From a virus: a stretch of 63,323 bases of DNA. The DNA lies in IMG/VR virus record IMGVR_UViG_3300035661_000064, positions 1-63,323 of that record. The stretch is one strand, 5' to 3'. The translations under genes were made by a program, and so were the position numbers. The notes beneath the pieces are model-generated. The model saw only the letters and a list, made by a program, of their open reading frames with translations, did no database searches and was not told the origin of the DNA. Below, piece after piece: positions 6,335 through 48,475 of this stretch (the first letter of the stretch is position 1; each line of letters opens with the position of its first letter).

Positions 6335-6349
6335 AAACATATATTAGTT
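6335..6349 (+). promoter_or_regulatory. Phage promoter motif for J-domain gene
   Basis: AAACATATATTAGTT, a near-exact copy of the shared motif, about 31 nt upstream of the start at 6380. Confidence 0.65.
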
Positions 6350-19522: not shown

Positions 19523-19570
19523 GATAAGTGTGTATCCTTAGGGTTAGTTTGAAAGGGAAAGTTGTCAAAA

Positions 19571-19624
19571 AGGGGTTTTCCCCCGTTTGGGGGAAAATCC
19601 TAAAGTCTTGATTTTCAACAAAAC
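19571..19624. repeat. Hairpin-bearing direct repeat, intergenic copy
   Basis: A 54-nt segment (starting AGGGGTTTTCCCCCGTTTGG) that is nearly identical to 20207-20261 inside the antirepressor-like gene. It contains the stem TTTTCCCCC-GTTT-GGGGGAAAA. On the minus strand it is followed by a T-run and serves well as the terminator of the 19633-20400 gene. Its shared flank (CTAAAGTCTTGATTTTCAAC) shows it derives from a gene copy, not from a simple terminator. Confidence 0.85.
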
Positions 19625-19632
19625 TAAGCTAG

Positions 19633-20400
19633 TTATTCAAAATAAGCAATTGGAATGTTTAGAGTCATACCGGGAAGAGCTATATGGCGACATAGGAAGG
19701 TTTTACCACTTCGACTTAAGCTTTCTTTGATTAAGTCTTTTTCAAATTGCTCACGTATTGAAACAAGATCTTCACTATTGAAAACTTCTCGAACAATTTC
19801 ACCATATTGAAACAACAACATCTCGCATTTGTAGTAAGTTAGAACTAAAGTAACTCGATCAATAGAACCTAGCTCAGGAAAATAATTAGAGCGAATCTTC
19901 TTTCGTGATAAGTATTGTCCTGATTCAAATTCTGTTACATTGATATGCTTAGGAAAGTGAACATGGTTTTCAATAAACTCTTTGTTTGAATGCTGTTCTA
20001 AACGAAGTGCTTCAGCTTCGTCTTCTCTTTCAGCTAAATAACGAAACAAGTCTCCTTTAGACATTGATTCTAAGAAAGTCTTAAGTTGTTCCATGCAATC
20101 AATAAAGAAAAGTCTTGTTTCCTTTCCTTTAGGAGATTTAGAAACCATAGCTGATTGCATTGCCATGCTCAATGTCATGCAATAGTTTTTAGAGGGACGA
20201 CCATTAAGGGGTTTTCCCCCGTTTGGGGGAATATACCTAAAGTCTTGATTTTCAACAAAACCATATGACTCTACTAAATCTTGAAACCAAGTTGGATGGT
20301 CACGACCAATTTCTAACCATTCATGCAATAGTCTAGAATCTACTGGAAAAGATGTTTTGATGTTGATTGATAGAAAGTCACTTACAGTTTTTACTGTCAT
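19633..20400 (-). CDS. AntA/AntB-type antirepressor-like protein
   Basis: The 255-residue product starting MTVKTVSDFL carries the Ant domain signature: FPVDSRLLHEWLEIGRDHPTW, FQDLVESYGFVENQDFRYIP, NGRPSKNYCMTLSMAMQSAM and ETRLFFIDCMEQL. In temperate phages such proteins release repressors; in large lytic phages the domain is a common DNA-binding module of unknown target. The C-terminal 130 residues are a charged helix then a novel domain. The start at 20400 is set by an AAGGAT site; the longer frame to 20472 has none. The codons for PPNGGKPLNG fall in the hairpin-bearing repeat described at 20207-20261, giving a terminator-like structure inside the gene. Confidence 0.7.
   Translation of the reverse strand: MTVKTVSDFLSINIKTSFPVDSRLLHEWLEIGRDHPTWFQDLVESYGFVENQDFRYIPPNGGKPLNGRPSKNYCMTLSMAMQSAMVSKSPKGKETRLFFIDCMEQLKTFLESMSKGDLFRYLAEREDEAEALRLEQHSNKEFIENHVHFPKHINVTEFESGQYLSRKKIRSNYFPELGSIDRVTLVLTYYKCEMLLFQYGEIVREVFNSEDLVSIREQFEKDLIKESLSRSGKTFLCRHIALPGMTLNIPIAYFE
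20207..20261. repeat. Hairpin-bearing direct repeat, copy inside antirepressor-like gene
   Basis: 55-nt partner of 19571-19624, about 640 nt away in direct orientation. The C5/G5 stem is retained and is translated as IPPNGGKP. Confidence 0.85.
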
Positions 20401-20474
20401 GATAAGTATATCCTTAGGGTTAACGAAATGAAACGAAACGAAATGAAACACATTGAAAGTTATGTATCTCATGT

Positions 20475-21921: not shown

Positions 21922-22046
21922 GGTTTTTGTACTCTTTAAAGTTGAATTGAAATTTCTCTTTCATTGAAATGTTATTTCCAGTTAAACCAATTTTCAGAAT
22001 TTTGATTTCCGCATTAACATTTTAATGAAAGTGAAGACAGTGATTT

Positions 22047-22062
22047 GAAGTATATATTAGTT
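22047..22062 (+). promoter_or_regulatory. Phage promoter motif for reverse-transcriptase-like gene
   Basis: GAAGTATATATTAGTT, a variant of the shared motif, 33 nt upstream of the ATG at 22095. The preceding sequence (21950-22030) has inverted TTTCATTGAAA-like pieces. Confidence 0.6.
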
Positions 22063-22094
22063 CTATGCCTTAAATTAACTTATAGGAGTATCAT

Positions 22095-24788
22095 ATGTCA
22101 GCAATAGAAGATTACACTAACACTAAAACTAGAATGGTCTTAGACTCTTTAGCAGATATCAATTATGATGAAGAAATTCAATTAGACTTATCTGAAATCA
22201 CTAATCGATTCAATTCAAGAAAAATCATTACTTCTCAAAACTTCTCTTATGCAACTTCAATCTATGCAGCTATTTTAAGATCTCAAGAGATTAAACAGTT
22301 AATCATGAGAACAATCTTTAAAGATGCTAGACAGATTCAGTATAACTTCTTTCAACCTACAGACGATAAAGACTCTGTTTTCTTTCAAGTGAATGATTAC
22401 TTAATCAAATCAATCTTTGTTGAAATTGATATTCAACTAGTAGCTTTACTCTTAAAGAGCTTTAACCAAGAGAAAAAAGAACTTGAAGAAAATTCTGTAA
22501 TGGATAAACGTAGGAAGAAAAAGTTCTTAAACAAGATCACTCTTCAGATTGATATGTTTACTCATCACTTGTCTTTGTTAGAACGTTACCTTGTTTCAAA
22601 TTGTTATTCCACTTCAAATTACTATCTTCCTACATTGTACTTAACTAGGTTTAAGTACAATGTTTTATCAGAATCGTTTCCAGTTTTAAAAGTTCCTAAA
22701 AACTCTGACTCTAAAAGTGTCAATGAAATTAAATACCGTGAGTTTCGAATCAAGCCATTAAGAAACTTAATTGGTCAAGCAGTAGCAGTTTTCTTTGTAG
22801 AATCTTACAAACTGTTAGAAGGAATCTTTAAATCATCACCTTTAATCAGTAAGAAAGAGATTCATTCTGCGTTAGTAGTATCGCTCATTCCTAAATTCTT
22901 CTCTACTAAGTCTGTACGTCACTCACTAGTAGCTAACTTCAGTAATCCAGTCTTTCAAACTTATTTAGACAAGTATCAATCAGCAGACCCTGACATAATT
23001 GACAAGACAAATTACTTCACTTTGTTTATGAACAATACGCTAAATAAAGATGAAGATGCATTTAAAACTGATGTTTATGGAAGTCGAATGTTTATTGACT
23101 TCGATCTGTTGTTAAAGCGTACTATTGGAACTAAGCGTGACAATCAGGTATCGATTTCTAGCTATGTTCATGAGTATTCTAAGTTTACTTCAGTGATTGA
23201 AACCAATCAAGAGGAATATCCTTTCTCTGTAAAAGTCGATATTGAAAAGTTCTTTGCTTCAACTACTATCAAACATGTTATCTTAGCAATAACTGAAACG
23301 CTTTCAATCTCAACAAGTAACATTGACAAAGCAATGACAGTTAACTTACTAGCTGATTCGTTTGATTTTGAATACTTAAATGAATCTGGTAAGACTAAAA
23401 CTAACTGCAACTTAACAATTATGAGCCATCTTGAACATATCATGGCTAGATGGATAGGTGAGTTTTTAACTAAACAAATTAAAGCAAAGTTTGTTGAAAA
23501 CAATTTAGATGTTCAACTTAATCTTTACGTAGATGATTTCATTATACAAGCTAAAGATATAGCATCTCTGTCTGTTTCTAAAGAAATAGTAGAAAACACG
23601 ATTACCAACTTTGGTTATAAAGTCAGTTCTAAAACGTTAAAAGCAAACAAATCTCTTGTATATCTTCCTAATTTAGCAGACTATGTAGACTTTACTTCTA
23701 GTTATTTAGTAGAAACTGATTTTGAAATCAGTGAAAACACTCTTCGTTACTACGACTTAACTCCTGATACAAACCACACTGGAGAAGGACAAACCGATGA
23801 AGACAGAAGAACAGACTGTGCTGAAATACATGACGCTAAAAACATTTTAGATCTTAAATCCTTCTGCATAGCTTTTTACAAAGACATTGAAACTGTTTTA
23901 GCTGATCCGTTCAGCAATTCTACGCGACTAAGCTATTTTCAAATGGTGAAGCAAATGATTAGTTCGGATACAAAGCTTAGTAAAACATTTGCTCTAATTC
24001 TCAGTGAACAATCAACCTTACCAGATGCTGGTGCTCCATACTTAGGAAGCGACTCCGAATTCATAAATCGAACTGTCAGAGATCGTTGTACATCCCGAAC
24101 AGAACTGTTTATAAGCTTAAATCGCACTAAAAATCATAAACTGAACGAGCATCTTGAACACATAATGGATGCAATTCCTTTCATAACTAATTCAACAAAT
24201 TACTCATTGATCGTTCTGAAAAATCTATCGCTTCGTTTGTTCATGTACTTAAAGGAAATTGAGTACTATGTTATGTTTAGTCTTACTGACAGAGACTACA
24301 TTGAAAACTTAATCGATTCATCAGCATTCGAAATTGACAGCTTTGTAACAGAGTATCTGAACCAAGCAAACAATTCTACTTTAAATCTAACAAACATTGA
24401 GCTTGAATTGTTTAATGAAGTTAATGTTCTCAAGCTTTATCAATATTTGACTTTAAACACTACAAGAGGTTCTATGCGTTATAAAAGTATGATGTTTAAG
24501 CTTCTTTTAGTTCTTACAATCTTGTTTCCTCAAAAAGTAAAGTGGAATGTTTACTTGCTAAAGAAGCTTACTGACAACAGTGAACTACTGAATCGTTACT
24601 ACCCTGTACCAGTTAAAGAAGATATTTCATTGTTACAACGCGAAATGCTTTACTTCAATAAACGCTTTAACAATGAATACTACTTTCATGAATTGCAAAC
24701 AGGACGTTATGTATCTTACAGTTTAGCAAATTCTCAGTTAAACAGCTTGTTAAAAAATGAATTTGATTTTGGAATGAAAACCTCCTAA
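22095..24788 (+). CDS. Reverse-transcriptase-like protein (Abi/UG-type)
   Basis: An 897-residue protein with the palm motifs of reverse transcriptases. Motif A is FSVKVDIEKFFASTTIKHVI (Asp 382). Motif C is LNLYVDDFIIQAKD with the catalytic Asp pair at 480-481. Motif D follows at the usual distance: NTITNFGYKVSSKTLKANKS (501-520), ending in the expected Lys. Motif B is degenerate (NCNLTIMSHLEHIMARWIGE, 437-456) and lacks the PQG of group II, retron and diversity-generating enzymes, which points to the Abi/UG assemblage. An N-terminal region of about 330 residues and a helical C-terminal region of about 370 flank the palm; the latter layout recalls AbiA/AbiK-type proteins. A clean AGGAG site and private promoter make it an independent unit. 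Function in the phage is unknown; superinfection exclusion is one idea. Polymerase activity is not proven. Confidence 0.72.
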   Translation: MSAIEDYTNTKTRMVLDSLADINYDEEIQLDLSEITNRFNSRKIITSQNFSYATSIYAAILRSQEIKQLIMRTIFKDARQIQYNFFQPTDDKDSVFFQVNDYLIKSIFVEIDIQLVALLLKSFNQEKKELEENSVMDKRRKKKFLNKITLQIDMFTHHLSLLERYLVSNCYSTSNYYLPTLYLTRFKYNVLSESFPVLKVPKNSDSKSVNEIKYREFRIKPLRNLIGQAVAVFFVESYKLLEGIFKSSPLISKKEIHSALVVSLIPKFFSTKSVRHSLVANFSNPVFQTYLDKYQSADPDIIDKTNYFTLFMNNTLNKDEDAFKTDVYGSRMFIDFDLLLKRTIGTKRDNQVSISSYVHEYSKFTSVIETNQEEYPFSVKVDIEKFFASTTIKHVILAITETLSISTSNIDKAMTVNLLADSFDFEYLNESGKTKTNCNLTIMSHLEHIMARWIGEFLTKQIKAKFVENNLDVQLNLYVDDFIIQAKDIASLSVSKEIVENTITNFGYKVSSKTLKANKSLVYLPNLADYVDFTSSYLVETDFEISENTLRYYDLTPDTNHTGEGQTDEDRRTDCAEIHDAKNILDLKSFCIAFYKDIETVLADPFSNSTRLSYFQMVKQMISSDTKLSKTFALILSEQSTLPDAGAPYLGSDSEFINRTVRDRCTSRTELFISLNRTKNHKLNEHLEHIMDAIPFITNSTNYSLIVLKNLSLRLFMYLKEIEYYVMFSLTDRDYIENLIDSSAFEIDSFVTEYLNQANNSTLNLTNIELELFNEVNVLKLYQYLTLNTTRGSMRYKSMMFKLLLVLTILFPQKVKWNVYLLKKLTDNSELLNRYYPVPVKEDISLLQREMLYFNKRFNNEYYFHELQTGRYVSYSLANSQLNSLLKNEFDFGMKTS

Positions 24789-24806
24789 TCCGGTTTAACT
24801 GAAAAG

Positions 24807-24842
24807 GGAAAGACTCGTTTGAGTCTTTCCTTCTTTCTTTTT
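24807..24842 (+). terminator. Terminator after reverse-transcriptase-like gene
   Basis: GGAAAGACTC-GTTT-GAGTCTTTCC followed by TTCTTTCTTTTTT. Confidence 0.85.
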
Positions 24843-26857: not shown

Positions 26858-29800
26858 ATGCCTATTAAACTTGCAGCTCGATATATTCTTCCCGTTGTTG
26901 ATATGACACGAAGAAACGAGTTTAACATTTTTGACAGAGAAATGTTTATTTCTTCTGACAATCGAGTCTTTGTTCGTTTTGAGAATAGAGACATTGAAAT
27001 CCCTGAAGCGTCTAGCGATTTAAAAGAAGTTTCAGGTAAATACTTCTATACAGTAAACGATGAAGAGTTTGAAATCATCTTTCCTGAATCAAATAGAGTT
27101 ACTTCTGGATTGAAACTAGTAGGTAAACCTATTCTAAGCTTTATGTCTGGTTCTGGAGTAAACAATGTTAATCATCCAAATGGTTCAATTGTTATTGTTA
27201 GAGTAGACGCTTTAGAAGATTCACTTTACACGTTAGAAGATGTTTCGTTTCAGTACAAAGTAAACGGATACAGTTGGGTAGATGACATTGAAGCATTTCA
27301 CATTTTTGAAGGAGCAGAAGGAGCAATGTCAGGTTGTGCTAAAACCTACGTTGTTAGAGCTGTTAGTCCTGATGGGTTTCACTACTCAGCTGAAACAACT
27401 ATCACAGCTAGACGCGTAACTTTAGAATCTGAAGTTCCATCATTGGACACAATCTTTTCACTGCCATCATCTGAAGAAAACACTTTAGTTTCGTATTCAT
27501 TCTATCCAAACTACATCTCAACAAATCTATTTTGCAGTGGTCACAAAACTCATTTAACGCTTTATCAGAAGGTAAATGGAGTTTATACTAGTGACTATCA
27601 GGCAAATGGAATTCGCTTCGCACGAGTGGCTGGAGCACCTCCTGAATACTTTCAAGGGTCTCCTCAAACTTTGATTGAAGACTATCTCCCATCTTACCCG
27701 TACAATGATTGGACTATGTGGAACAAAATAGAAATTCAATCAGTTCCTAATGAGAACATTGAGTTTTACTTTGAAGTTGAAATCGTTCCTAACGACCCAT
27801 CTGAATATTCAATGGTAAACAACAATCCGAAGAAGAAGTTTCATTATATTGCAACAAATACAGACTTAGCACCTGACTTAAGCAATTTGAAGCTTTTTAA
27901 GGATGTGTTTGAATGGACTGCAATGAACCAACTGAGTGAAAATTCAAATGTTACAGGTTTTTCAATTCAGGGAATGGATACTACTAAGAACTCATATAGC
28001 ATAGTTTCTTCAACTATTGCAGGTGTAGCAGGACAACCTCCTACAGGTTTTTCAATCTTAACTCCTTCTGTGGTAGGCTCAGCTGAAGCAACTTTTTCAC
28101 TGACGGTTCAGGGAACTAACAATGTAAGTGGTCTTTTTTCAACTAAGACATTCTCTATTAGAGTAGTGAACTTAGCTGTCAATGATGCTTCTACAATAAC
28201 GTTGAATCAAATAGCTAATTCAGAGCGTTACAATGACTCTTCTATCTTTGAGTTTGTTTTTAGCATTGCAGGTGGAACAACTGAAAGTGGTAACAAGCGG
28301 TATAGTTTAAGTGATCTAAACGTAGCTAATATGTTAAGATTTGAAGTTTCAGGTCAAACACCATTAATAGGTTCTGGTGTTGTAAACTATACTACATTGA
28401 AATTTGCAGCTGGTGTTCCTATAACTATTCAGTATCAAACCTCTTATGTTGAAACTAATCTTGGAATTCCTTCAATGACAGTCACTCTGTATGATGACTC
28501 ATACAGTTATTTAGCTACTTCGTCTAAAATTCTTAGTATACGGGCACACACATTAGCCCAAGTACAAGGTCTACTAATTAATCCCGATATTACAACTACT
28601 ACAATCGGCGGTATTATACAGCCTAACACGTATTTTCGAGAAGCTGATGTAGGAATCATGTACAAACGTCTAAACTCGTCAGTTACCCTGCCAACTGATA
28701 CTAAATGGAGAATCAATGAATCTTTTCCTGCAAACTTTATTGAATATTTAGGAGCTTTAACTTCAACAACTGGTTTAGACACTACTTCTAACAATTATTA
28801 TCTACCTACAATTGTTGAACGTGGTGGAAAAACAGGTTACTTTGGAACTGATGGTCTTGCTGATTCAATTAAATTAGATTCTGCTTCATGGATAGCTAAA
28901 TCAAGATTTGTTACTTGGATTGGTGCTACAGTATTAGTTGAGATTCCATCAACAAGACAAACATTCATGATTAACACTGGTCTATATTTGTTAGATCAAA
29001 ACAACAATGAATTAAATGACAACAACAATCCGATTCAAGAATCATCTATGGTTCAAACAGACGGGACGGAGTTTATAACTTGTACAGATACAGGTTGGAA
29101 AAACTATTGGAAAGACCGTTTAAACACAGCTCCTAATGCTCCTACTATAGTCGAAAGTGAAGAAAATGGTGTACGTTATTACACTGTTACTTCTAAGTTT
29201 AGATTACGAATAAACAATTCAGACCCTTCCTATTCTACGATAATTGTACCTTCTAGCTATTCAGGAAGGCTATTGTCATCTTATGCAAACGATGACTTAA
29301 CTGCTAACAATGTTTCTTCTAATATCTCATTCACTTCTCAGACTAATTCAGTTTTAAACCGCAGATTCTTAAGCTTTAACTTTATCCCGTACAATCAGGA
29401 TTTGACCTTAACTATCAAGATTCGTAAAAGTGTGTTTATAGACAACTCTACAGAATCAACAATTCCTATTATCTTCATGGTCAAGGAGAACTTTGAGTAT
29501 ATTGATCAAACTCCATCAGTGACTCCTCGTGTATATCAGTTCTTTATGAATGTCCCTAACCCATACTTCAATATCATCAAAATAGACGAAGAGTTTTCTT
29601 ACTATAAAATTCCCACTCAAGGAGAACCGTCGATTTTAGTGATTAACCCTTCATTAGATGGAATTGCAACAGCTGGTTTAGGTAAAGGAAACGTCTACAA
29701 TTTCATCTTTACTCCTACTTATCAATTACCTTGGTGTCCGGGTCAAGATCTTGCAGAACTTTCTATGACCATGACTGGAAACGATGGTTCAGGAAGTACT

Positions 29801-32800
29801 ACGTTTTATCCAACAGCATTCAATTCAACTATCTATAACGTTTACCGCCTTCAATGTAACGAATCTGAGACTAGTTCGCTTATTACTTTAAACTACACTA
29901 AGAAGATCTATTTCAACTCTTTAGTTCAAAGCCCATTTCCTCCTGAGTTTAAGCTTTACACTAAAACTATTCAGTTTACACCGTACAGCACACTTCCGTC
30001 TCCTGTTAACTTAGGAAATCTTGCTTTAGATATTCAATTTCAACGTGGTAGTAGTTTAACATGGAATCTAACTACAGGTGGCTCTGCTAGAAAAGTTAAA
30101 AACTCTCTAAACCAAACGTTCACAGGAGCACCTACAGTTCAGTACGTTGTAGGTCATACAATCAAATTAGTTCCTTACGTTTCTGATCCTGCAAACATAG
30201 CAGGTGGAACTGATTTAGACCGTTCTACTCCTCAAACAACTTATCAAACAGTCTATGAATTCAGGAATTCAGATAGTTCTGCACCTATTACTTCCTCTAA
30301 TCCATATGGTTTTGTAGGTGGTTCAGATTCAGCAAATTCTAGAACTCAATTAGGTGGAAGTGCTCAAGAGTTTGCTTACATTCCAGCTTCTACACCAGCA
30401 CAGAAAATAGGAATCATTCGTGTTTACTTTATGTATGCTAACAGAACATACGACACTGTAACTGGTTTACCTAATGATGGAAGTGACTATAAGTGGATAG
30501 ACTTTAAGTTTGAATTCTTTGATGAAGTCTTTTACTTCGCAACAGTAGAAGGAAATATAGAACGTTTTGATCCTAACACATTAACATACCCTTCTACAGG
30601 AAGCTTTCCTATTTATACGATTGGAGTAACAAATAACCCAACGTTTAGTGTATTTCAAACAGCAACGAGTGTGTTCAAAAGTGTATTGCTAGATTCTCCG
30701 TCAATGACATCTAAAACAGTAACAGTTCTTCCTGCACCAAACCCGTTTCATTCCGATAGTGGCTCATATACACGGTATGGAAAAAATGCGTCAAACGTTG
30801 ATTTCTACAGTGCTTCAGGTATTTATCCTGATTGGAGTTTCACTAATGGAATGACATTCAAGTTTGATACAACTAAGATTCAAACCGACTTTGACATTGC
30901 TCCTCAGTACAACGACAATAGTTTAACACAGTATAGTTTCTTTGGTTTGTACGGAACAATCTCATATCGTGGAGTAAACTACTCATTTTACTTCATGGAT
31001 AACACTAGTACATGGATTCATCTAGGCTATTTTAATCTTCAAGCAAGACCTGTTCCTGCTGATAACCGTGTTTTAACTAAAGATGCTAATAGCGGTTATG
31101 TTCCTCCTTACGACCGTCTTCAAACTAAATTTATCATCAACGCTCTTAAAGACAAACCCGAATATCGTTTAGGTGAAGAGATTGAACTAACTTGTGGCAG
31201 TTCACAAATCTATGGGAACACAAGTTGTTATATTTCAGGAGACTATTACGACACAATCTTCACTACTGGAAATAGTTACACGATAGGCGATTCAACTACT
31301 TTGACTTATGTTAAAGGTAAACTTGCAGATGGAACAGTTATAGAGTTTAATAGTTCTTCAACTGTTTATCCTATTTCAACTTATCAAACCGAAGTAGTTC
31401 TGAACAATTTGTTCAATGTAATACTAATCGAGATTCCCCCCGTTATTGAATTGTCATTAGACAATGGAGTAACATTTACATTTACTCCTGAAGAATTTGG
31501 TTTTAGTATGGGAATCTTTGCAACAGGCGATTTAGTAAATCCTATCAAAATTGAAAGTTTCGTCTTCTACATAACCCCTAACACTGCAGCAGGTCAAACG
31601 CTTTCTATCTCTAGCGATCCCACAAGTACTCCAGACATTCCGGGTGTATCATCTTACACTGCTGACTTAATCTCAGTTCCAAATCAACCATTTTGGAGTA
31701 GCAGTCCCAGTAGAATCTTTAATGGCTCATATGCTACAAGTCTAGATTCTATGAGTGTTGTTACTGAAACAGCAGGAGCGTATGTTCCCCCGTTTACTTC
31801 GCCTGTTGAAAATCTTTATACTAAACATTCAAGATACTTTACATTCAAGAAACTATGGCACAGCGAAATCTATTCTCATCTAAACTATGAACCTACAAAC
31901 TTGATTGATTATCACTACTTCATTCGTCCTGATAATCTTGTCTACATTAGAGGGTTTAATACATCTACTAATGCAGATGTTACTTCAGTATTAGCGTTTA
32001 ACGCAGGTCAATACATTCCTAGAGATAGTAGACTCAAAGTAACAAGTGCTGCCTTGATTGTTTATCCTGAAAAGGAAAATCAATCAAACACTGCTCGGAA
32101 TTACGGTTGTATAGTAGTATCGTTAATGGACTTTACTCGTTCATCAGGGTCTGATATTAAAGGCTTTATAGACTTCTGCTACATTCCTGTCTTAATTCCT
32201 ATTACAACAAACCAAAGTCTTTCAATAACAGTTGTAATGGATTCAGCTCAAACTTCTTCTGGATTAATTTCAGTAAAACCAATTTATCGAGTAGTGCACA
32301 AAACACTTGATCTCAATCCATCTTTGCTTTCTAATTGGAACTTAATATCTGGTGACAGTCTTGATACTAACGCTGTTTCAACTACATTTGCAATGAGTTT
32401 AACTGCTGTAAATAGCACAAAATTTGATATCACTGCAGCCGATAATCTTATCAACTTTCCTCTTTATAAGTTTATGGAACTTGTTAACGTTGATATTGCA
32501 TACATGCAAACAACACTAGGCGATGTTCAATCTGATTTGTATGGAAGATCATCAGTTCTAGTAGTTGGTTACAACACTGTCTTTATTCCATCAACAGTTA
32601 ATACAAGTACAACTTACTTCGGAAAGTCTTATTACAGTGGCTTCCTTACTACAATGAAAATTCGGTATGGTATTATTCCGGGAACGCTCACTCTCTTTAC
32701 AACTATGCAAGACCATTTGACAATTGATGCTTCAGAAACACAGCATAAGTACAAGCTTTACTTTACAGGAAACGTTGATTTCTCTATTGATGCTATGCCG

Positions 32801-34009
32801 TCTAAACATAACAAGCTTACAGGAACTGACGTTTTATACAGCTTTGAAGCGAAAGTAGCTTTGGATTATATGGAATCTACAAATGGTAAGTTATTACAAC
32901 CTTTCTTCTTTGATGGTTTTACACGTTTAGTCCCGTCTAGCATTTCAAACTTAGTTAGCTATGATAATAAGATGCTTTCTAACTGGTCTTTACATACTTC
33001 TTTCAAACGAGAAATTCCGGGTTCTATAAACTCTACTGCAGACTCTACTTTAAACTTTGCAGTTAGGTTGAAAGCACCTAGTGCAGCTTGGAATGGTACG
33101 TCGCAAGTAAATGATTATGTATGCCTATCTGATACACTTGTCGAAAGATGGCATCAGATGTCAGTCAATGGAGCATACTCTAGTACTACATTCGCTAACA
33201 CATTTGGAAACTACTTCCTTGGCTCTAGTGCAACATCGTCTGATCGTTTTGTGTTTAAAGCTCTTTCATCACACAGAACATCATGCTTTACATATAGTGT
33301 AGATGAATACTTAGACGAAGGCGGTGATACTAAGTTAGCTATTGAAACTCGGTTAATGAAATCTCTCACGTTAGGCGTTATTTATCCTGAAGCTAAGAAT
33401 GATATCACTAACACAAGACTAGCAAAGTTCTTTATAACTTCAAATGCTGGAGCATCAACTGCTTATGATTCGATTATCTTAACTCAACCCACAATTGAGA
33501 ATCTCTACGTTGTTAAACAGTATCCATTTAAAGGAACTATTGAAGGATTCCTTGAAAAAGCCTCTCCAACATTTGCTGTTATTAAGTCTAAAGACACTAG
33601 ACATTATTTAATGCTAGTAATGGTAGGTTCAATTCTGCGTATCTATGCTACAAATACAGAAATTCCATACAGGTATTATTCTGACATCAATAATACTTAC
33701 ATCTTCCGCGAAATGGATAAGTTTACATTTGTCAAAGAAATAGATCTATGGCTTGAATTAGCAATTCAAACAAAGAATCTTTTCTGGCGTTCTGAAACTA
33801 ATTCAGCATGGACAGGTGTTACTCCTAATCTTACTGGATTTAGAAACGTAATTGTTCAAACTGAAAAAGGCTATGTAGACTTAATTTCTACGGCTGTTTA
33901 TGGTGGAACTAGTTTAGGTAATCCTACTATAAAAGTCAAACGAGTTCGCTTTCCACTCATTAATTCTTATTCTTCTTCTTCTAATGTAGGAGCGCCTGCA
34001 AGCAACTAA
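26858..34009 (+). CDS. Giant virion protein (2,383 residues), probable tail fibre or adhesin
   Basis: The largest gene in the window. GAGGA precedes the start. The protein is low in Cys, rich in Ser, Thr, Asn, Tyr and Pro, and is made of many beta-strand units with the rhythm of immunoglobulin-like or carbohydrate-binding domains (for example FSIQGMDTTKNSYSIVSSTI and GVAGQPPTGFSILTPSVVGS in a repeated VxG/AEATFSLTVQG style). No enzymatic motif, coiled coil or intramolecular chaperone domain is recognised. Its size and place among fibre-like genes suggest a long tail fibre, tape-like surface filament or baseplate decoration protein. Receptor binding is an inference. A tape-measure protein is unlikely because the sequence is beta-rich and not helical. 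Confidence 0.65.
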   Translation: MPIKLAARYILPVVDMTRRNEFNIFDREMFISSDNRVFVRFENRDIEIPEASSDLKEVSGKYFYTVNDEEFEIIFPESNRVTSGLKLVGKPILSFMSGSGVNNVNHPNGSIVIVRVDALEDSLYTLEDVSFQYKVNGYSWVDDIEAFHIFEGAEGAMSGCAKTYVVRAVSPDGFHYSAETTITARRVTLESEVPSLDTIFSLPSSEENTLVSYSFYPNYISTNLFCSGHKTHLTLYQKVNGVYTSDYQANGIRFARVAGAPPEYFQGSPQTLIEDYLPSYPYNDWTMWNKIEIQSVPNENIEFYFEVEIVPNDPSEYSMVNNNPKKKFHYIATNTDLAPDLSNLKLFKDVFEWTAMNQLSENSNVTGFSIQGMDTTKNSYSIVSSTIAGVAGQPPTGFSILTPSVVGSAEATFSLTVQGTNNVSGLFSTKTFSIRVVNLAVNDASTITLNQIANSERYNDSSIFEFVFSIAGGTTESGNKRYSLSDLNVANMLRFEVSGQTPLIGSGVVNYTTLKFAAGVPITIQYQTSYVETNLGIPSMTVTLYDDSYSYLATSSKILSIRAHTLAQVQGLLINPDITTTTIGGIIQPNTYFREADVGIMYKRLNSSVTLPTDTKWRINESFPANFIEYLGALTSTTGLDTTSNNYYLPTIVERGGKTGYFGTDGLADSIKLDSASWIAKSRFVTWIGATVLVEIPSTRQTFMINTGLYLLDQNNNELNDNNNPIQESSMVQTDGTEFITCTDTGWKNYWKDRLNTAPNAPTIVESEENGVRYYTVTSKFRLRINNSDPSYSTIIVPSSYSGRLLSSYANDDLTANNVSSNISFTSQTNSVLNRRFLSFNFIPYNQDLTLTIKIRKSVFIDNSTESTIPIIFMVKENFEYIDQTPSVTPRVYQFFMNVPNPYFNIIKIDEEFSYYKIPTQGEPSILVINPSLDGIATAGLGKGNVYNFIFTPTYQLPWCPGQDLAELSMTMTGNDGSGSTTFYPTAFNSTIYNVYRLQCNESETSSLITLNYTKKIYFNSLVQSPFPPEFKLYTKTIQFTPYSTLPSPVNLGNLALDIQFQRGSSLTWNLTTGGSARKVKNSLNQTFTGAPTVQYVVGHTIKLVPYVSDPANIAGGTDLDRSTPQTTYQTVYEFRNSDSSAPITSSNPYGFVGGSDSANSRTQLGGSAQEFAYIPASTPAQKIGIIRVYFMYANRTYDTVTGLPNDGSDYKWIDFKFEFFDEVFYFATVEGNIERFDPNTLTYPSTGSFPIYTIGVTNNPTFSVFQTATSVFKSVLLDSPSMTSKTVTVLPAPNPFHSDSGSYTRYGKNASNVDFYSASGIYPDWSFTNGMTFKFDTTKIQTDFDIAPQYNDNSLTQYSFFGLYGTISYRGVNYSFYFMDNTSTWIHLGYFNLQARPVPADNRVLTKDANSGYVPPYDRLQTKFIINALKDKPEYRLGEEIELTCGSSQIYGNTSCYISGDYYDTIFTTGNSYTIGDSTTLTYVKGKLADGTVIEFNSSSTVYPISTYQTEVVLNNLFNVILIEIPPVIELSLDNGVTFTFTPEEFGFSMGIFATGDLVNPIKIESFVFYITPNTAAGQTLSISSDPTSTPDIPGVSSYTADLISVPNQPFWSSSPSRIFNGSYATSLDSMSVVTETAGAYVPPFTSPVENLYTKHSRYFTFKKLWHSEIYSHLNYEPTNLIDYHYFIRPDNLVYIRGFNTSTNADVTSVLAFNAGQYIPRDSRLKVTSAALIVYPEKENQSNTARNYGCIVVSLMDFTRSSGSDIKGFIDFCYIPVLIPITTNQSLSITVVMDSAQTSSGLISVKPIYRVVHKTLDLNPSLLSNWNLISGDSLDTNAVSTTFAMSLTAVNSTKFDITAADNLINFPLYKFMELVNVDIAYMQTTLGDVQSDLYGRSSVLVVGYNTVFIPSTVNTSTTYFGKSYYSGFLTTMKIRYGIIPGTLTLFTTMQDHLTIDASETQHKYKLYFTGNVDFSIDAMPSKHNKLTGTDVLYSFEAKVALDYMESTNGKLLQPFFFDGFTRLVPSSISNLVSYDNKMLSNWSLHTSFKREIPGSINSTADSTLNFAVRLKAPSAAWNGTSQVNDYVCLSDTLVERWHQMSVNGAYSSTTFANTFGNYFLGSSATSSDRFVFKALSSHRTSCFTYSVDEYLDEGGDTKLAIETRLMKSLTLGVIYPEAKNDITNTRLAKFFITSNAGASTAYDSIILTQPTIENLYVVKQYPFKGTIEGFLEKASPTFAVIKSKDTRHYLMLVMVGSILRIYATNTEIPYRYYSDINNTYIFREMDKFTFVKEIDLWLELAIQTKNLFWRSETNSAWTGVTPNLTGFRNVIVQTEKGYVDLISTAVYGGTSLGNPTIKVKRVRFPLINSYSSSSNVGAPASN

Positions 34010-42276: not shown

Positions 42277-42320
42277 TTCCCTTAGCCTTCATAGGGCTAA
42301 GGGAATACAGTGTTCTATTT
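42277..42320. terminator. Bidirectional terminator between convergent genes
   Basis: TTCCCTTAGCC / GGCTAAGGGAA stem, related in sequence to the hairpins at 8178 and 62687. Confidence 0.75.
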
Positions 42321-43604
42321 TTTACCTATTGTCAGTTTAATAGGTTTAAAGCTTGTTAGAATGTCAATCTTGCTTGTTTTAACACTCATGTCATGAAACG
42401 ACTTCAAAGAAGTATTCAAAACAGCAGAACCGATTTTAGTAGAGAGAGACCCTGCTAACTTGCTACCAAACTCATACATAGCATCACCTGCACACATGTT
42501 ACAGATTTTGTCACTAGTGCAGAAGAGAGGAGAACGAATCTCAATTGTCTGACCGACTAAAGAATCTAGAACGTCTTTCTTTAAGAGAACTAATTTATTG
42601 CTAATCTTAGCAAATCTAAGATGATACAACATTGCATCTTTCTTAGTCAAGTTAACTTTATAGAGTCTCTTTGTTCCACAATCAGACTTCCTTTCGTCTA
42701 GTACTACATGACCTAAAGAAGCATTAAGAGACTTAACAATATAACCACCTATCTGCGTTCCTACAGCTCGGTTGAAGCTAGCTGTAGTAAGCATATCATT
42801 ATATTTCCACAAGTCTTCTTTAGGTACTCCATCAACTAAATTAGCAGTAGAAATGTTCATTTGAGAAAAGTCATTACTTCTAGGAATCGCTCCTCTAGCC
42901 ATAGACGTATTCTTGTAATTGTTACCAAAGCCTTTAGAAGCTCCACTGTTATAGATAGCCATACCCGGAGTGTCCATCTTAGTTAAAGTAGTTTCAGCTA
43001 AGTTAACTAAGTCTTTTTCAACAGCTATGTAAGCATTCACGTCATTAGAAGATATAGTTTCAGCATGTTTCTTGAATGCTGCTTTTTTAGCAGCTTCAAC
43101 TTCTTTCAATGGTCTGATGGTATCAATATCAAGACTGAGACTCATGAAGCTAGCTATACCAAATCCTAACCAATGCCATCTATCAATGAACTCATGCATA
43201 ATCTTATTGTCTATTTCATCTTCAACATAAGCTAATGCAATCCTATCTTCAATAAACCCTTTAGTAGATTTATCAAAAGGTTTGTTGATGTAACCAAATA
43301 TTCGTTTAAGGACAGGATCAAAGAAAGAAAAGTAGTTAAAGACTATTCGCCCTAAGGTTGTTTCAATCTTAGTTTCAGCTATTGTAAAGCCTAAGGAAGC
43401 TAATTCTTCTTTGGTAAAAAAGATAGGATACTCGTTGTTGTACTTTTGCTTATCAGATTCAGAATATGAGAAGCTGTCAAGAAGAAATTGAAGAGTAATC
43501 TTATGAGTAGGATCTGGATTTCCTTCATCGGGAAGTATAGATTTGATAAACTCTTGTTTCTGTGCTTCAGTCACAGGAGTTTTATTTCGAATATCAGTTG
43601 CCAT
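42315..43604 (-). CDS. RNA polymerase beta-prime subunit, C-terminal part
   Basis: A 429-residue homologue of the C-terminal half of bacterial beta-prime. Landmarks in order: TLGRIVFN (83-90); WLGFGIASFMSLSLDIDTI, matching the beta-prime LGF..AT.sGISI..dD region; YNSGASKGFGNNY (218-230), matching the SGARGs segment; TTASFNRAVGTQIGGYIVKS, matching the TA.AGYLTRRLV bridge-helix/trigger-loop neighbourhood; SDCGT with Cys 309; and the second zinc site RSPLFCTSDKICNMCAGD (Cys 362, 368, 371) followed by IGSAVLNTSLKSFHDMSVKT. All four zinc cysteines are in the E. coli pattern. The catalytic NADFDGD part must be encoded elsewhere, as in the split subunits of phiKZ-like phages. It is probably part of a phage polymerase acting on phage promoters. 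Confidence 0.85.
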   Translation of the reverse strand: MATDIRNKTPVTEAQKQEFIKSILPDEGNPDPTHKITLQFLLDSFSYSESDKQKYNNEYPIFFTKEELASLGFTIAETKIETTLGRIVFNYFSFFDPVLKRIFGYINKPFDKSTKGFIEDRIALAYVEDEIDNKIMHEFIDRWHWLGFGIASFMSLSLDIDTIRPLKEVEAAKKAAFKKHAETISSNDVNAYIAVEKDLVNLAETTLTKMDTPGMAIYNSGASKGFGNNYKNTSMARGAIPRSNDFSQMNISTANLVDGVPKEDLWKYNDMLTTASFNRAVGTQIGGYIVKSLNASLGHVVLDERKSDCGTKRLYKVNLTKKDAMLYHLRFAKISNKLVLLKKDVLDSLVGQTIEIRSPLFCTSDKICNMCAGDAMYEFGSKLAGSLSTKIGSAVLNTSLKSFHDMSVKTSKIDILTSFKPIKLTIGKK

Positions 43605-45219: not shown

Positions 45220-45666
45220 TTACACGATTGGTTGATCTACAAAATCTACAGCATAAACAATTGAAGTTTTTTGGTTTGTACAAGAAGCATAACGAACAAG
45301 CTCTTTTTCTTGCTGACTAACAAGTTTAGACATGCAACCACCAATGTCAAGTTGATCCGTTCCTTCGCTAGGATACAAGAACGAATGAATTTCACAATAA
45401 TCAATATCATAGAATTTTACAAGTGTCATATTAGACATTACGGGTCTTAGAAACATTTGCTTGTCAGCTGGTGTTGCTGAATCAGTAAAACAGTTTTCAA
45501 TTCCTAACCATTGTTCAAATGATGATTTAAACAGCTTCAAATGGCTTTCTAAGTAGGCTAACTCTAACGAAGAAGGTTCACTTCTAAGCTTCGTTGGATA
45601 CTGGTCTACTGCTGCTTTTGCTGATACTAGACCTTCTAGACTTTTTCTAACTAGACTGATTGTCAT
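45220..45666 (-). CDS. Unknown protein
   Basis: A 148-residue protein starting MTISLVRKSLEGLVSAKAAV, with AAGGAAG before the ATG; the in-frame ATG at 45684 overlaps that site and is less likely. Helical N-terminal half, beta C-terminal half ending VYAVDFVDQPIV. There is no recognised motif. It is a single-gene unit with its own promoter. Confidence 0.6.
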   Translation of the reverse strand: MTISLVRKSLEGLVSAKAAVDQYPTKLRSEPSSLELAYLESHLKLFKSSFEQWLGIENCFTDSATPADKQMFLRPVMSNMTLVKFYDIDYCEIHSFLYPSEGTDQLDIGGCMSKLVSQQEKELVRYASCTNQKTSIVYAVDFVDQPIV

Positions 45667-45743
45667 TTCATCTTCCTTAAACATGTTAATTACAAGGGTT
45701 TAGGTTAAGAAATAATCAGTGATTTATTGCTTGAACCTATTCA

Positions 45744-45758
45744 ATTAATATATGTTTG
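45744..45758 (-). promoter_or_regulatory. Phage promoter motif for 45220-45666 gene
   Basis: Minus strand reads CAAACATATATTAAT, an excellent match, about 80 nt upstream of the start. Confidence 0.65.
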
Positions 45759-45768
45759 AAAAAAAGAA

Positions 45769-45792
45769 GAACCCTAAGGCTCTTCTTCTCCA
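45769..45792 (-). terminator. Terminator after 45803-46093 gene
   Basis: GAAGAACCCTAAGGCTCTTC stem; minus-strand U-run (TTTTTTTC). Duplicated at 46321-46344. Confidence 0.7.
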
Positions 45793-45802
45793 ATAAGTAC
45801 GG

Positions 45803-46093
45803 CTACCAACCGTACTTGTTTACCCCCACCTGTTTGAGGAAGAATTCTTCCACGTCCTGATATCCGTCAATATCAGCGGCTGTCCAATCACCAGCGTAGG
45901 CGAAATAGAGGAGTTCTTGGTGGCCTTCTTGCCCAACGTCGATTTTCACAGTGGCGACTAAGTAGCCATTGATTGTATCGGCAAAACCACTCATCAACTT
46001 CTGCATTTCCCCCCAACTCGAAATCTCGACTGGTAGGGTTGCTCTCAAAGCTCCAATTGCAATGTGGATCTTGCGAACGGTAGAAGTAGTCAT
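45803..46093 (-). CDS. Small well-expressed protein, duplicated copy 1
   Basis: A 96-residue protein that is a paralogue of 46358-46648: both start MTTSTVRKIHI and end in EEFFLKQVG(V/I)NKYGW, with about half of the middle conserved. Predicted by eye as strand-turn-strand (KIHIAIGALRATLPVEI), helix (SWGEMQKLMSGF), strand (VATVKIDV), strand (QELLYFAYAG), helix (VEEFFLKQVG), an order that would suit a beta-grasp fold, though this is weak evidence. The leader is a thrice-repeated sequence with a near-perfect GGAGGTG site and consensus promoter, so the protein should be abundant. Function unknown; could be an anti-host or anti-defence factor. Confidence 0.65.
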   Translation of the reverse strand: MTTSTVRKIHIAIGALRATLPVEISSWGEMQKLMSGFADTINGYLVATVKIDVGQEGHQELLYFAYAGDWTAADIDGYQDVEEFFLKQVGVNKYGW

Positions 46094-46174
46094 GATACAC
46101 CTCCATTAAATGAATGAAGTCTTACATCTCGAAAGGAACGCTCCTGTATGTATCACCTAAATAATATATGTTTG
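46094..46174 (-). promoter_or_regulatory. Repeated leader and promoter, copy A
   Basis: An 80-nt unit: promoter motif AAACATATATTATTT (46160-46174), then GGTGATACATACAGGAGCG and onwards to GGAGGTGTATC just before the ATG. Copies B and C are at 46649 and 48327. GATAC near the 5' end is complementary to GTATC between the ribosome binding site and the start codon, so the leader could fold back. Confidence 0.8.
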
Positions 46175-46195
46175 ATTTCAGAGGGTTCGTAGAAG

Positions 46196-46300
46196 TTTAG
46201 CTACACTGAATGCCATGTAAAGTAATAGCGCTTTACGATAACGAAGATTAACACTCTCTTTAACATCATCTCCATACTGTAAACGAATGAAGTATTCAAG
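46196..46300 (-). pseudogene. Copied C-terminal fragment of the 46751-47905 gene
   Basis: Read on the minus strand this encodes EYFIRLQYGDDVKESVNLRY then RKALLLYM, almost identical to the C-terminus of the intact gene at 46751-47905, with a 14-nt deletion near the end. It was carried along in the tandem duplication and has no start. Confidence 0.8.
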
Positions 46301-46320
46301 TAATGTATGCTTGAAAAAAA

Positions 46321-46344
46321 GAAGAACCCTAAGGTTCTTCTTCT
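46321..46344 (-). terminator. Terminator after 46358-46648 gene
   Basis: GAAGAACCCTAAGGTTCTTC stem with minus-strand U-run; duplicate of the 45769 hairpin. Confidence 0.7.
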
Positions 46345-46357
46345 CCAATAAGTACGG

Positions 46358-46648
46358 CTACCAACCGTACTTATTGATCCCAACCTGTTTGAGGAAGAAC
46401 TCCTCTACAGTTTGGAAACCTTCAATGTTAGCAGCGCACCAAGCGCCGCCATAACTGAAGAATAACAGCTCACGATGGGGTTCTTGTTTGAACCCCACGT
46501 CCATCTTTACAGTGGACACTGACGACCCATCGATTGACGAATTGTTCAACAGGGTCTGCAATGCAGACCAACTGGCGATTTCAATCGGCAATTCAATCGT
46601 CATTGAACCACTGTTGATGTGGATCTTGCGAACGGTAGAAGTAGTCAT
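46358..46648 (-). CDS. Small well-expressed protein, duplicated copy 2
   Basis: A 96-residue paralogue of 45803-46093. The first 11 and last 15 residues are virtually unchanged, while the middle (INSGSMTIELPIEIASWSAL, KMDVGFKQEPHRELLFFSYG) differs at about half of positions, and one residue has become Cys (AWCAANIEG). This pattern, conserved ends and a changed middle, suggests divergence in a binding face after duplication. Same leader and promoter as copy 1. Function unknown. Confidence 0.65.
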   Translation of the reverse strand: MTTSTVRKIHINSGSMTIELPIEIASWSALQTLLNNSSIDGSSVSTVKMDVGFKQEPHRELLFFSYGGAWCAANIEGFQTVEEFFLKQVGINKYGW

Positions 46649-46728
46649 GATACACCTCCATAAATGAATGAAGTCTTACATCTCGAAAGGAAAGCTTCTA
46701 TATGTATCACCTAAATAATATATGTTTG
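46649..46728 (-). promoter_or_regulatory. Repeated leader and promoter, copy B
   Basis: Second copy of the 80-nt leader, with promoter motif at 46714-46728. One T is missing near the ribosome binding site and a few changes lie in the small internal hairpin (AGAAGCTTTC here against AGGAGCGTTC in copy A). Confidence 0.8.
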
Positions 46729-46750
46729 ATTTCAGAGGGTTCGTAGAAGT

Positions 46751-47905
46751 TTAGCTACACTGAAACTCTTGAATACTGAATGTCATGTACAGTAATAGTG
46801 CTTTACGATAACGAAGATTAACACTCTCTTTAACATCATCTCCATACTGTAAACGAATGAAGTATTCAAGACCATCTCTGATAGATACGATGTTACTGTC
46901 AGTTATGTTGATTTTGTTAAATGTAGAAATTGCAAAAGCTACAAATTGATCACTGCACATAATTCGAGTATCTGAAGTTCCATTCTTTTCTAACACTGCC
47001 CCTAACATTCCTGCTACTACAAATTCTAAATGATCTGAATTGTCCTCTTTAACAATTTCAATCAAACGCATTAAGTTTGATTCACTTGCTAAAGGTTCAA
47101 ACTCATGAGCTAATCTAAGACCCTTTTTGTTTATTGCAGCTGAAGTAAACCAAAGTCTAAAGTTTTGAGCAAATCTAGCAATTGTATTACTCCTAGTCTC
47201 TCGCTCAATTTCAAACTCACCTTCTTCACCTGTAGCAGTAGACGAATCAACTTTCATGTAAAGATTGTGAGTATAGTTGTGCTTAAATTCATCATACACA
47301 TTCTTAATGAACGAGTTAACACGAGTTCTAAAACCTTCCATGTATTCAAACATGTCATTATCTACGTTTGAGAGAAGTCTCGGTTTGTAGTTCTCTAATA
47401 CTGATTCAGATAACTTGCTTAAAGCTCTTTGAAGTGTTCCTAGACGTTTAATATCATACTTGTTAGAGAGATTATTTACTGTATAGTCCATTACTTCAAC
47501 TTTAGCACTGCCATGTGTAAAGTATGTAAGGTACAAAAGAGAATAAAGCTTTAAGACTGTATATGCTAGTACAGCGTTTAGCATCTTTTCATTTTTAGTT
47601 TCTAAGTAGTATTTAGCTGCAAGAATTAACCTCAAATAGAATGACTCACTCTTAAATGACTTTGCTACAGGTTTCATATCTGTCGACAGCTCCATTACAC
47701 TAGTGTATTCAGATTCAATTCCACTAGTTAATTGGTAGATAGGCGTATTACTTAGTAGTGGTCTTTGATACAATCCTGCTGCTGAAAGTATTGTATGGTT
47801 TTGATGAAAAATCTCTGTTAGCTCAGAAACAAATTTATCTTGAGCGGATTTGTTTGCAAGATTACTCTTTATTCTGTTGTAAAGAGGTAAGAATTCTTTT
47901 GACAT
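46751..47905 (-). CDS. Unknown helical protein
   Basis: A 384-residue protein starting MSKEFLPLYNRIKSNLANKS, with AAGGACTG upstream. It is almost wholly helical by eye, including LNAVLAYTVLKLYSLLYLTY, a hydrophobic stretch that could be buried or membrane-facing. No motif is recognised. Its 3' end has been copied into the tandem duplication downstream. It follows the MAKK gene on the same strand, separated by a terminator, and has no clear promoter of its own. Confidence 0.6.
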   Translation of the reverse strand: MSKEFLPLYNRIKSNLANKSAQDKFVSELTEIFHQNHTILSAAGLYQRPLLSNTPIYQLTSGIESEYTSVMELSTDMKPVAKSFKSESFYLRLILAAKYYLETKNEKMLNAVLAYTVLKLYSLLYLTYFTHGSAKVEVMDYTVNNLSNKYDIKRLGTLQRALSKLSESVLENYKPRLLSNVDNDMFEYMEGFRTRVNSFIKNVYDEFKHNYTHNLYMKVDSSTATGEEGEFEIERETRSNTIARFAQNFRLWFTSAAINKKGLRLAHEFEPLASESNLMRLIEIVKEDNSDHLEFVVAGMLGAVLEKNGTSDTRIMCSDQFVAFAISTFNKINITDSNIVSIRDGLEYFIRLQYGDDVKESVNLRYRKALLLYMTFSIQEFQCS

Positions 47906-47956
47906 TATGTTTCAGTCCTTGATTGTGGATAAGATCATTACTGTGTTGCTGCTATA

Positions 47957-47981
47957 AAAAAGAGAGGATTGCTCCTCTCTT
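47957..47981 (-). terminator. Terminator after 47987-48217 gene
   Basis: AAGAGAGGA / TCCTCTCTT stem; minus strand continues TTTTTTATAG. Confidence 0.8.
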
Positions 47982-47986
47982 AATTT

Positions 47987-48217
47987 CTACACGACTTTGT
48001 TAGTCATGTAGAAGTCGAATGCTGCTTGAGCGTTCGATTCATTTAGTTCGCGATGTTCATTAAGTGAACTAATGCCGTAACCCAAGCGGGCTACTGCATT
48101 AGTGTATCCGCTCCAAATCCCTTTTTCAGGGATTGTTACTTTTCCACCTGACGGCATCATAACTGTGTAGCAAGCTTTTTTAGAGCCTGCTACTTTGATG
48201 AATACTTTCTTTGCCAT
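47987..48217 (-). CDS. Small basic protein of a well-expressed unit
   Basis: A 76-residue protein starting MAKKVFIKVAGSKKACYTVM, with AGGAG 8 nt upstream of the ATG at 48217. Strands at the start, PSGGKVTIPEKGIWSGYTNA in the middle and a helical end. It is the second gene of a short unit driven by leader copy C; the first is a 22-codon frame (48258-48326). A longer in-frame extension to 48322 would need a non-ATG start and has no site, so it was not used. Function unknown. Confidence 0.65.
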   Translation of the reverse strand: MAKKVFIKVAGSKKACYTVMMPSGGKVTIPEKGIWSGYTNAVARLGYGISSLNEHRELNESNAQAAFDFYMTNKVV

Positions 48218-48257
48218 TTGTATAATACTCCTATGATATAAAGGGGGGGAAAGAGAA

Positions 48258-48326
48258 TTAGCAGCGTTTCCAGCTGCGTATGATTTGCGTGGTTGGCATA
48301 GGGGGTAATCTAGGAAATCCAAACAT
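48258..48326 (-). CDS. Very short open frame behind strong leader copy C
   Basis: The ATG at 48326 sits directly after the repeated GGAGGTGTATC leader, in exactly the position where the two 96-residue genes begin. It opens a 22-codon frame, MFGFPRLPPMPTTQIIRSWK then RC and TAA. Either it is a real short peptide (proline-rich, then basic), or a leader peptide for the MAKK gene 41 nt downstream, or the degraded remains of a third copy of the small gene. Coding evidence is the ribosome binding site alone. Confidence 0.4.
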   Translation of the reverse strand: MFGFPRLPPMPTTQIIRSWKRC

Positions 48327-48408
48327 GATACACCTCCATTAAATGAATGAAGTCTTACATCTCGAAAGGAACGCTTCTGTATGTATCACCTAAATAATGT
48401 ATGTTTGT
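48327..48408 (-). promoter_or_regulatory. Repeated leader and promoter, copy C
   Basis: Third copy of the 80-nt leader; the promoter motif is slightly altered (AAACATACATTATTT, 48394-48408). Confidence 0.8.
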
Positions 48409-48475
48409 TTCTAACAAAACCGTAAAATAACAATAGTCTTGTTTAGGGACTATTGTTATTCAAGTTAAATAAACA

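Follow-up and report, generated by a model that had tools for sequence, protein, structure and literature searches.

What is a stand-alone reverse transcriptase (RT) doing in a virulent jumbo phage? The question is raised by an open reading frame (ORF) of IMG/VR record IMGVR_UViG_3300035661_000064, the whole of which, a genome fragment of 63,323 bases, was analyzed here (the window). An RNA polymerase (RNAP) subunit gene at 42315-43604 is 40% identical to its AR9/PBS1 counterpart and 37% identical to that of phiR1-37, and 19 more window ORFs have distant AR9 or phiR1-37 matches (E ≤ 1e-3). On these matches, the window belongs with the jumbo phages that encode a multisubunit RNAP, a group that includes AR9, phiR1-37, and Staphylococcus S6/SA1. 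Phages of this group are known as virulent, and the preliminary description of a lytic phage is reasonable in view of the relatives AR9, PBS1, and phiR1-37, for a record that is a 63-kb fragment only.

Several features elsewhere in the window were recorded. Repeated small genes lie on the − strand at 45220-48450, preceded by repeated stretches of 48 to 194 bases that are up to 98% identical; this is a recent local gene duplication. A 2383-aa ORF (26858-34009) could not be matched clearly to any Pfam or PHROGs family, and a 436-aa phage protein (6380-7690) carries a DnaJ domain at its C-terminal end (E = 7e-7). Despite the virulent phage lineage, an AntA-type antirepressor gene is present at 19633-20472 (E = 6e-16), and a 56-base hairpin-like repeat occurs next to this gene (19569-19624) and inside it (20206-20261). 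Among other RTs of related phages, the retron type occurs in Staphylococcus and Listeria phages and the group II type in LPJP1; this Listeria phage has three RT genes, of which two resemble retron RTs and the third a group II RT. All jumbo Staphylococcus phages have an RT, whose role is unconfirmed (PMC10638138).

The preliminary description had proposed an 897-residue RT-like protein with palm motifs A (VKVDIEKFF), C (YVDD), and D (GYKVSSKTLK) in order. The ORF, here called P0001, was found exactly as delimited, with an ATG start codon; the longest opposite-strand ORF within 22095-24788 is 98 codons. All three motifs were located in the order given, as was a fingers hairpin that had been missed earlier and that is conserved in a relative described below (Table 1). 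F387, five residues past D382, corresponds in position to DRT3b F187, a ribose contact (PMC13174585). Profile matches were weak and mutually consistent (PADLOC RT, E = 1.3e-4; PADLOC UG33, E = 7.8e-5), and Pfam RVT_1 matched residues 376-513 at E = 0.0055, under the Pfam cut-off. The catalytic Asp of motif A and the YxDD of motif C both fall within the predicted palm. P0001 is thereby confirmed as an RT-fold polymerase.

Table 1. Positions of the RT-like gene, its motifs, and its flanking signals in the window
Feature	Position	Strand	Basis
Virion-RNAP (early) type promoter: AAGTATATATTAG, 6 nt, G at 22067	22048..22067	+	Inferred from likeness to AR9 and pre-g096 sites
Ribosome-binding site AGGAG	22084..22088	+	Sequence
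RT-like polymerase P0001, 897 aa	22095..24788	+	ORF list, profile matches, homology, model
Fingers hairpin (RT motif 1), residues 197-224; LKVPKNSD at 198-205, with K202	22683..22766	+	Kept in g096; aligned to Drt3b hairpin
Motif A, residues 378-388, catalytic D382 and F387	23226..23258	+	Sequence, alignment, model
Variant motif B, residues 438-456, CNLTIMSHLEHIMARWIGE, H448 in column of Drt3b R241	23406..23462	+	Alignment, model; PMC13174585
Motif C, residues 477-484, LYVDDFII, with Y478-V479-D480-D481 intact	23523..23546	+	Sequence, alignment, model
Motif D, residues 505-513, NFGYKVSSK	23607..23633	+	Sequence, alignment
C-terminal region, residues 546-897, probably helical	23730..24785	+	Helices in model with pLDDT about 31 (weak)
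Intrinsic terminator, 12-pair stem, T-rich tail	24805..24842	+	Sequence, fold

The sole relative of P0001 that was found is g096 of Yersinia phage phiR1-37 (CCE26120.1), a 690-aa protein deposited without a product name and, in contrast to several of its neighbors, without virion-protein annotation. BLASTP aligned the two proteins at 30% identity over 138 aa of the RT core (E = 2.9e-6 in a search that covered all ORFs of two phage genomes). Their pairwise score was z = 12.7 (150 shuffles), and the next RTs were Drt3b, at z = 4.5 and 3.8. With the PADLOC and Pfam matches, these values put the RT assignment above chance. P0001 and g096 are very divergent, about 25% identical, and have all catalytic aspartates and F387 in common; Asp382 and YVDD, on whose conservation the first assignment had been staked, are thus retained in the one homologue. 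The likeness extends past the core to LxVPKNSD in the fingers and SxYxHEYxxF ahead of motif A. In both proteins, motif B has the form (N/G)LTI(M/E)SHxxHxxA, replacing PQGxxxSP (NLTIMSHLEHIMA in P0001 and GLTIESHFQHLIA in g096, as aligned). Since g096 has the same unusual motif B, the motif previously called degenerate in P0001 is a conserved trait; it is non-canonical, as had been noted.

Direct relatives of P0001 were not found in GenBank phages, plasmids, or IMG/VR, nor in the PDB by sequence, and RT-domain alignment scans of viral contigs (P0001 first) and of genome contigs yielded nothing that was confirmed. A Pfam RT match was absent from 22 RNAP-related IMG/VR records. A profile of the pair, searched against 21 RNAP-related IMG/VR records and six named phages, gave a clear match in phiR1-37 only; the same profile gave no match in 369 genomes of one bacterial class, in a search run without a positive control. 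Fecal phage matches to g096 were group II introns and were rejected as relatives. The gene is rare among relatives and outside the core set, in a sample in which many records may be fragments.

A full-length model from two sequences reached a pLDDT of about 31, with weakly predicted helices appearing only after residue 547. The large helical C-terminal region proposed earlier is therefore suggested by a very low-confidence model, in which neither a HEAT nor a HEPN fold could be shown. A second model was built for P0001 residues 193-554 from an alignment with g096 and 49 Drt3b-like rows. Block pLDDT values were 90 for motif A, 71 to 96 for the motif B helix, and 90 to 96 from motif C through the following helix; most of the fingers and of the A-to-B stretch was below 65. 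The best PDB matches were Abi-P2 chains (E = 6.9e-6), followed in order by DRT9, group II intron RTs, DRT4, AbiA, and retron RTs. The top BFVD match, G4KK35, is a viral protein of 690 residues, the length of g096. Global TM-scores were low, about 0.3, because the fingers were poorly modeled. The predicted palm is confirmed in this model, in keeping with the palm fold expected from the preliminary description. Since the alignment behind the model is mostly Drt3b-like, its fold matches cannot settle the RT class.

Profile comparisons bear on that class. With hhalign, the RT domain of the pair matched Drt3b plus AbiK at 96.7% (E = 4e-10), group II RTs at 96.2% (E = 2e-9), and retron RTs at 52.9%, over 39 columns only; reversed controls gave 0.2% or less. 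P0001 alone matched Drt3b plus AbiK at 38.8% versus 2.4% for group II. Profile matches of g096 were to UG21, AbiP2, and Drt3b, its HMM scores were 60 bits for group II versus 36 bits for Drt3b, and its PDB sequence matches were group II RTs. The Drt3b HMM did not match P0001, which had no strong match to any single UG group, and no UG33 members were found in 296 genomes of one phylum. An RT-core tree set g096 beside UG21 with support of 27/26 and left P0001, partly misaligned there, unplaced. A g096-led scan yielded four Drt3b-like proteins, and through these 80 bacterial genomic loci were found; the label reflects motif forms and a C-terminal Tyr, following the description of DRT3b (PMC13174585). 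Thus, the UG/Abi kinship put forward earlier stands at the profile and fold level, with group II scoring nearly as well and no UG group matching strongly. Class 1 UG/Abi kinship (Drt3b, AbiP2, AbiK) is slightly the better reading compared with group II and is not proven.

The same numbers define the strongest competing explanation, namely that P0001 is a templated RT that arose by domestication from an ancestor resembling group II introns and that serves the phage's own nucleic-acid metabolism (repair, recombination, or making cDNA from a phage RNA). The pair's group II hhalign match, the higher group II bit score of g096, and the PDB matches of g096 would all fit such an origin. We consider it somewhat unlikely, as the PQG triad of motif B is lost in both proteins, the top fold match is to Abi-P2, and P0001 alone favors Drt3b plus AbiK. 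That P0001 belongs to a group II intron as such was rejected, since Rfam gave no intron RNA match and Pfam gave just the weak RVT_1 match and no maturase domain.

The variant motif B also occupies a position implicated in nucleotide choice. A near-invariant Arg in the E-x-S-R-I-F-A-E of Drt3b-like proteins aligns with H448 of P0001 and H310 of g096. Judged by how far it lies from motif A and from YVDD, this Arg probably corresponds to R241 of DRT3b, which is reported to select dC (PMC13174585). The same column holds Arg in AbiK, Asp in AbiP2, and Ser in one UG21 member. Because His replaces the dC-gate Arg in the phage proteins, a product unlike poly(dCdA) is predicted.

To judge from its signals, the RT gene is a single transcription unit comprising promoter, ribosome-binding site, ORF, and terminator. 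In AR9, virion-RNAP promoters are of the AACTATATATTAT type and transcription starts 6 nt downstream; phiKZ and phiR1-37 have similar ones (PMC5312081). The sequence TAATATATTAT-6N-G lies upstream of g096, which is likewise followed by a terminator; g096 is unnamed in the main text of the phiR1-37 RNA-seq paper (PMC4848604). Sites with at most one mismatch to AANTATATATTAN number 15 in the window versus 5.8 expected, and such sites are also found upstream of ligase and RNR genes. The site ahead of P0001 points to transcription by the virion RNAP, and its timing may be early. A recurring promoter-like sequence, about TTTCAAACATATATTATTTNNNTG, lies some 45 to 75 bases upstream of many window ORFs (for example, at 6335, 8917, 11430, 18222(−), 20551, 40002, 44045, 46173(−), and 46727(−)) and probably serves the virion RNAP of this phage as promoter. 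Just ahead of the RT promoter, where the genes on either side diverge, is an inverted repeat at 21958-22031 (17 bp with one mismatch, 40 bases between the arms, RNA fold z = −2.45), which may be an operator, a processing site, or a small RNA.

This inverted repeat and the presence of DRT9 among the fold matches are what might be expected if P0001 were templated by a nearby non-coding RNA in the manner of the Class 2 DRTs (DRT2, DRT9, DRT10). Against this, the repeat precedes the predicted transcription start (22067), the gap between the ORF and the one after it is just 99 bases and contains a terminator, Rfam gave no match, and there is one locus only, with no second in which RNA conservation could be seen. 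An enzyme templated in this way is accordingly unlikely.

Less probable again is a polymerase fold without catalysis that serves as a binding or structural protein. The strongly changed motif B of both proteins and the weak profile scores would suit it, and the retention of every catalytic aspartate and of F387 in two proteins that differ so widely makes it improbable. A DGR or retron RT is very unlikely even though retron-like RTs occur in related jumbo phages of Staphylococcus and Listeria and host switching has been discussed for them (PMC10638138): repeat searches of the 63-kb fragment found no template/variable repeat pair near the gene, as had been observed before, no retron family appeared among the PADLOC matches of P0001, Rfam, in which msr/msd RNAs are only partly represented, gave no match, and the retron hhalign match was short.

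Of the explanations weighed, we tentatively favor that P0001 is a phage-owned, Class-1-like RT-fold DNA polymerase, protein-primed and template-independent, that is made early and acts in conflict. Enzymes of Class 1 have a C-terminal alpha-solenoid instead of a thumb and assemble as trimers or hexamers. They use a protein primer and synthesize DNA that is untemplated or of protein-set sequence (PMC9508834, PMC13174585). By analogy, the C-terminal helices of P0001 would stand in place of a thumb, DNA synthesis would be primed on a tyrosine, and no nucleic-acid template would be needed; the choice of nucleotides to be added may be set by residues close to the active site, H448 among them. Transcription from the virion-RNAP promoter would begin at the start of infection, and the enzyme would act most likely against co-infecting phages or host defense and not in virion building. 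The conflict role is suggested by the Class 1 kinship, the patchy presence, and the promoter type. The intact D382, F387, and YVDD, the motif B of g096, the Drt3b plus AbiK profile match, the Abi-P2 fold match, the virion-RNAP-type promoters and terminators at both genes, and the lack of virion annotation for g096 are consistent with this Class-1-like polymerase; the near-equal group II scores, the failure of the Drt3b HMM to match P0001, the lack of the terminal Tyr of Drt3b, and the occurrence of the same promoter type ahead of housekeeping phage genes count against it. A broader proposal is more doubtful: that the AR9/phiR1-37 lineage of jumbo phages has an undescribed RT-fold polymerase family of its own, with His at the gate, that makes protein-primed DNA of protein-set sequence at the start of infection, in which case a type of bacterial immune enzyme would serve these phages as a weapon or for counter-defense.

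Class 1 UG/Abi polymerases are known defense enzymes borne by bacteria or prophages. AbiP2 is known from P2-type prophages (PMC8934634). The literature covered by our search, which was incomplete, contained no statement of an Abi-type RT in virulent jumbo phages; what is new, as far as searched, is that g096 is recognized as an RT and paired with P0001, and that the two share their motif B. An enzyme of defense type has apparently been converted into a stand-alone gene of the phage, and if virulent jumbo phages keep it as a single early-type gene, it would be a naturally occurring example of such an enzyme at work for the phage. The question can be tested with g096 in an isolated phage, phiR1-37, and the gate change from Arg in Drt3b to His in both phage proteins offers a sharp test of the protein-templating idea for DRT3b.

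Comparison with known systems sets P0001 apart to different degrees. The Staphylococcus jumbo phage RTs (SA1, Madawaska, MarsHill, DC4) come from phages of the same multisubunit-RNAP lineage as the window and differ in being of retron type by profile (RT_II-A, 2.7e-39 for SA1; Madawaska has a Pfam RT match only), with E of about 1 to g096. AbiK compared with the P0001 core gave z = 0.6, not above shuffles. Abi-P2 shares the palm fold and is the best PDB match; unlike P0001, it has PQG and YRDD. Drt3b (UG8, Class 1, of the DRT3 system) shares the palm and motif B layout, YVDD, and the motif preceding motif A. Its motif B Gly and gate R241 correspond to M443 and H448 of P0001, and its priming Tyr is at the C terminus (Y666 of 667); the Drt3b-like proteins P0004 to P0007 end in Tyr, whereas P0001 lacks this residue and ends in NEFDFGMKTS. 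No Drt3a partner was found beside P0001, the adjoining ORFs having no RT match. Compared with P0001, g096 has a shorter N-terminal part and a shorter stretch from the fingers hairpin to motif A, the C-terminal parts can hardly be aligned, and the gene positions are not syntenic. The two nevertheless share the RT core, LxVPKNSD, LTIxSHxxHxxA, and YVDD, and each gene has its own promoter and terminator.
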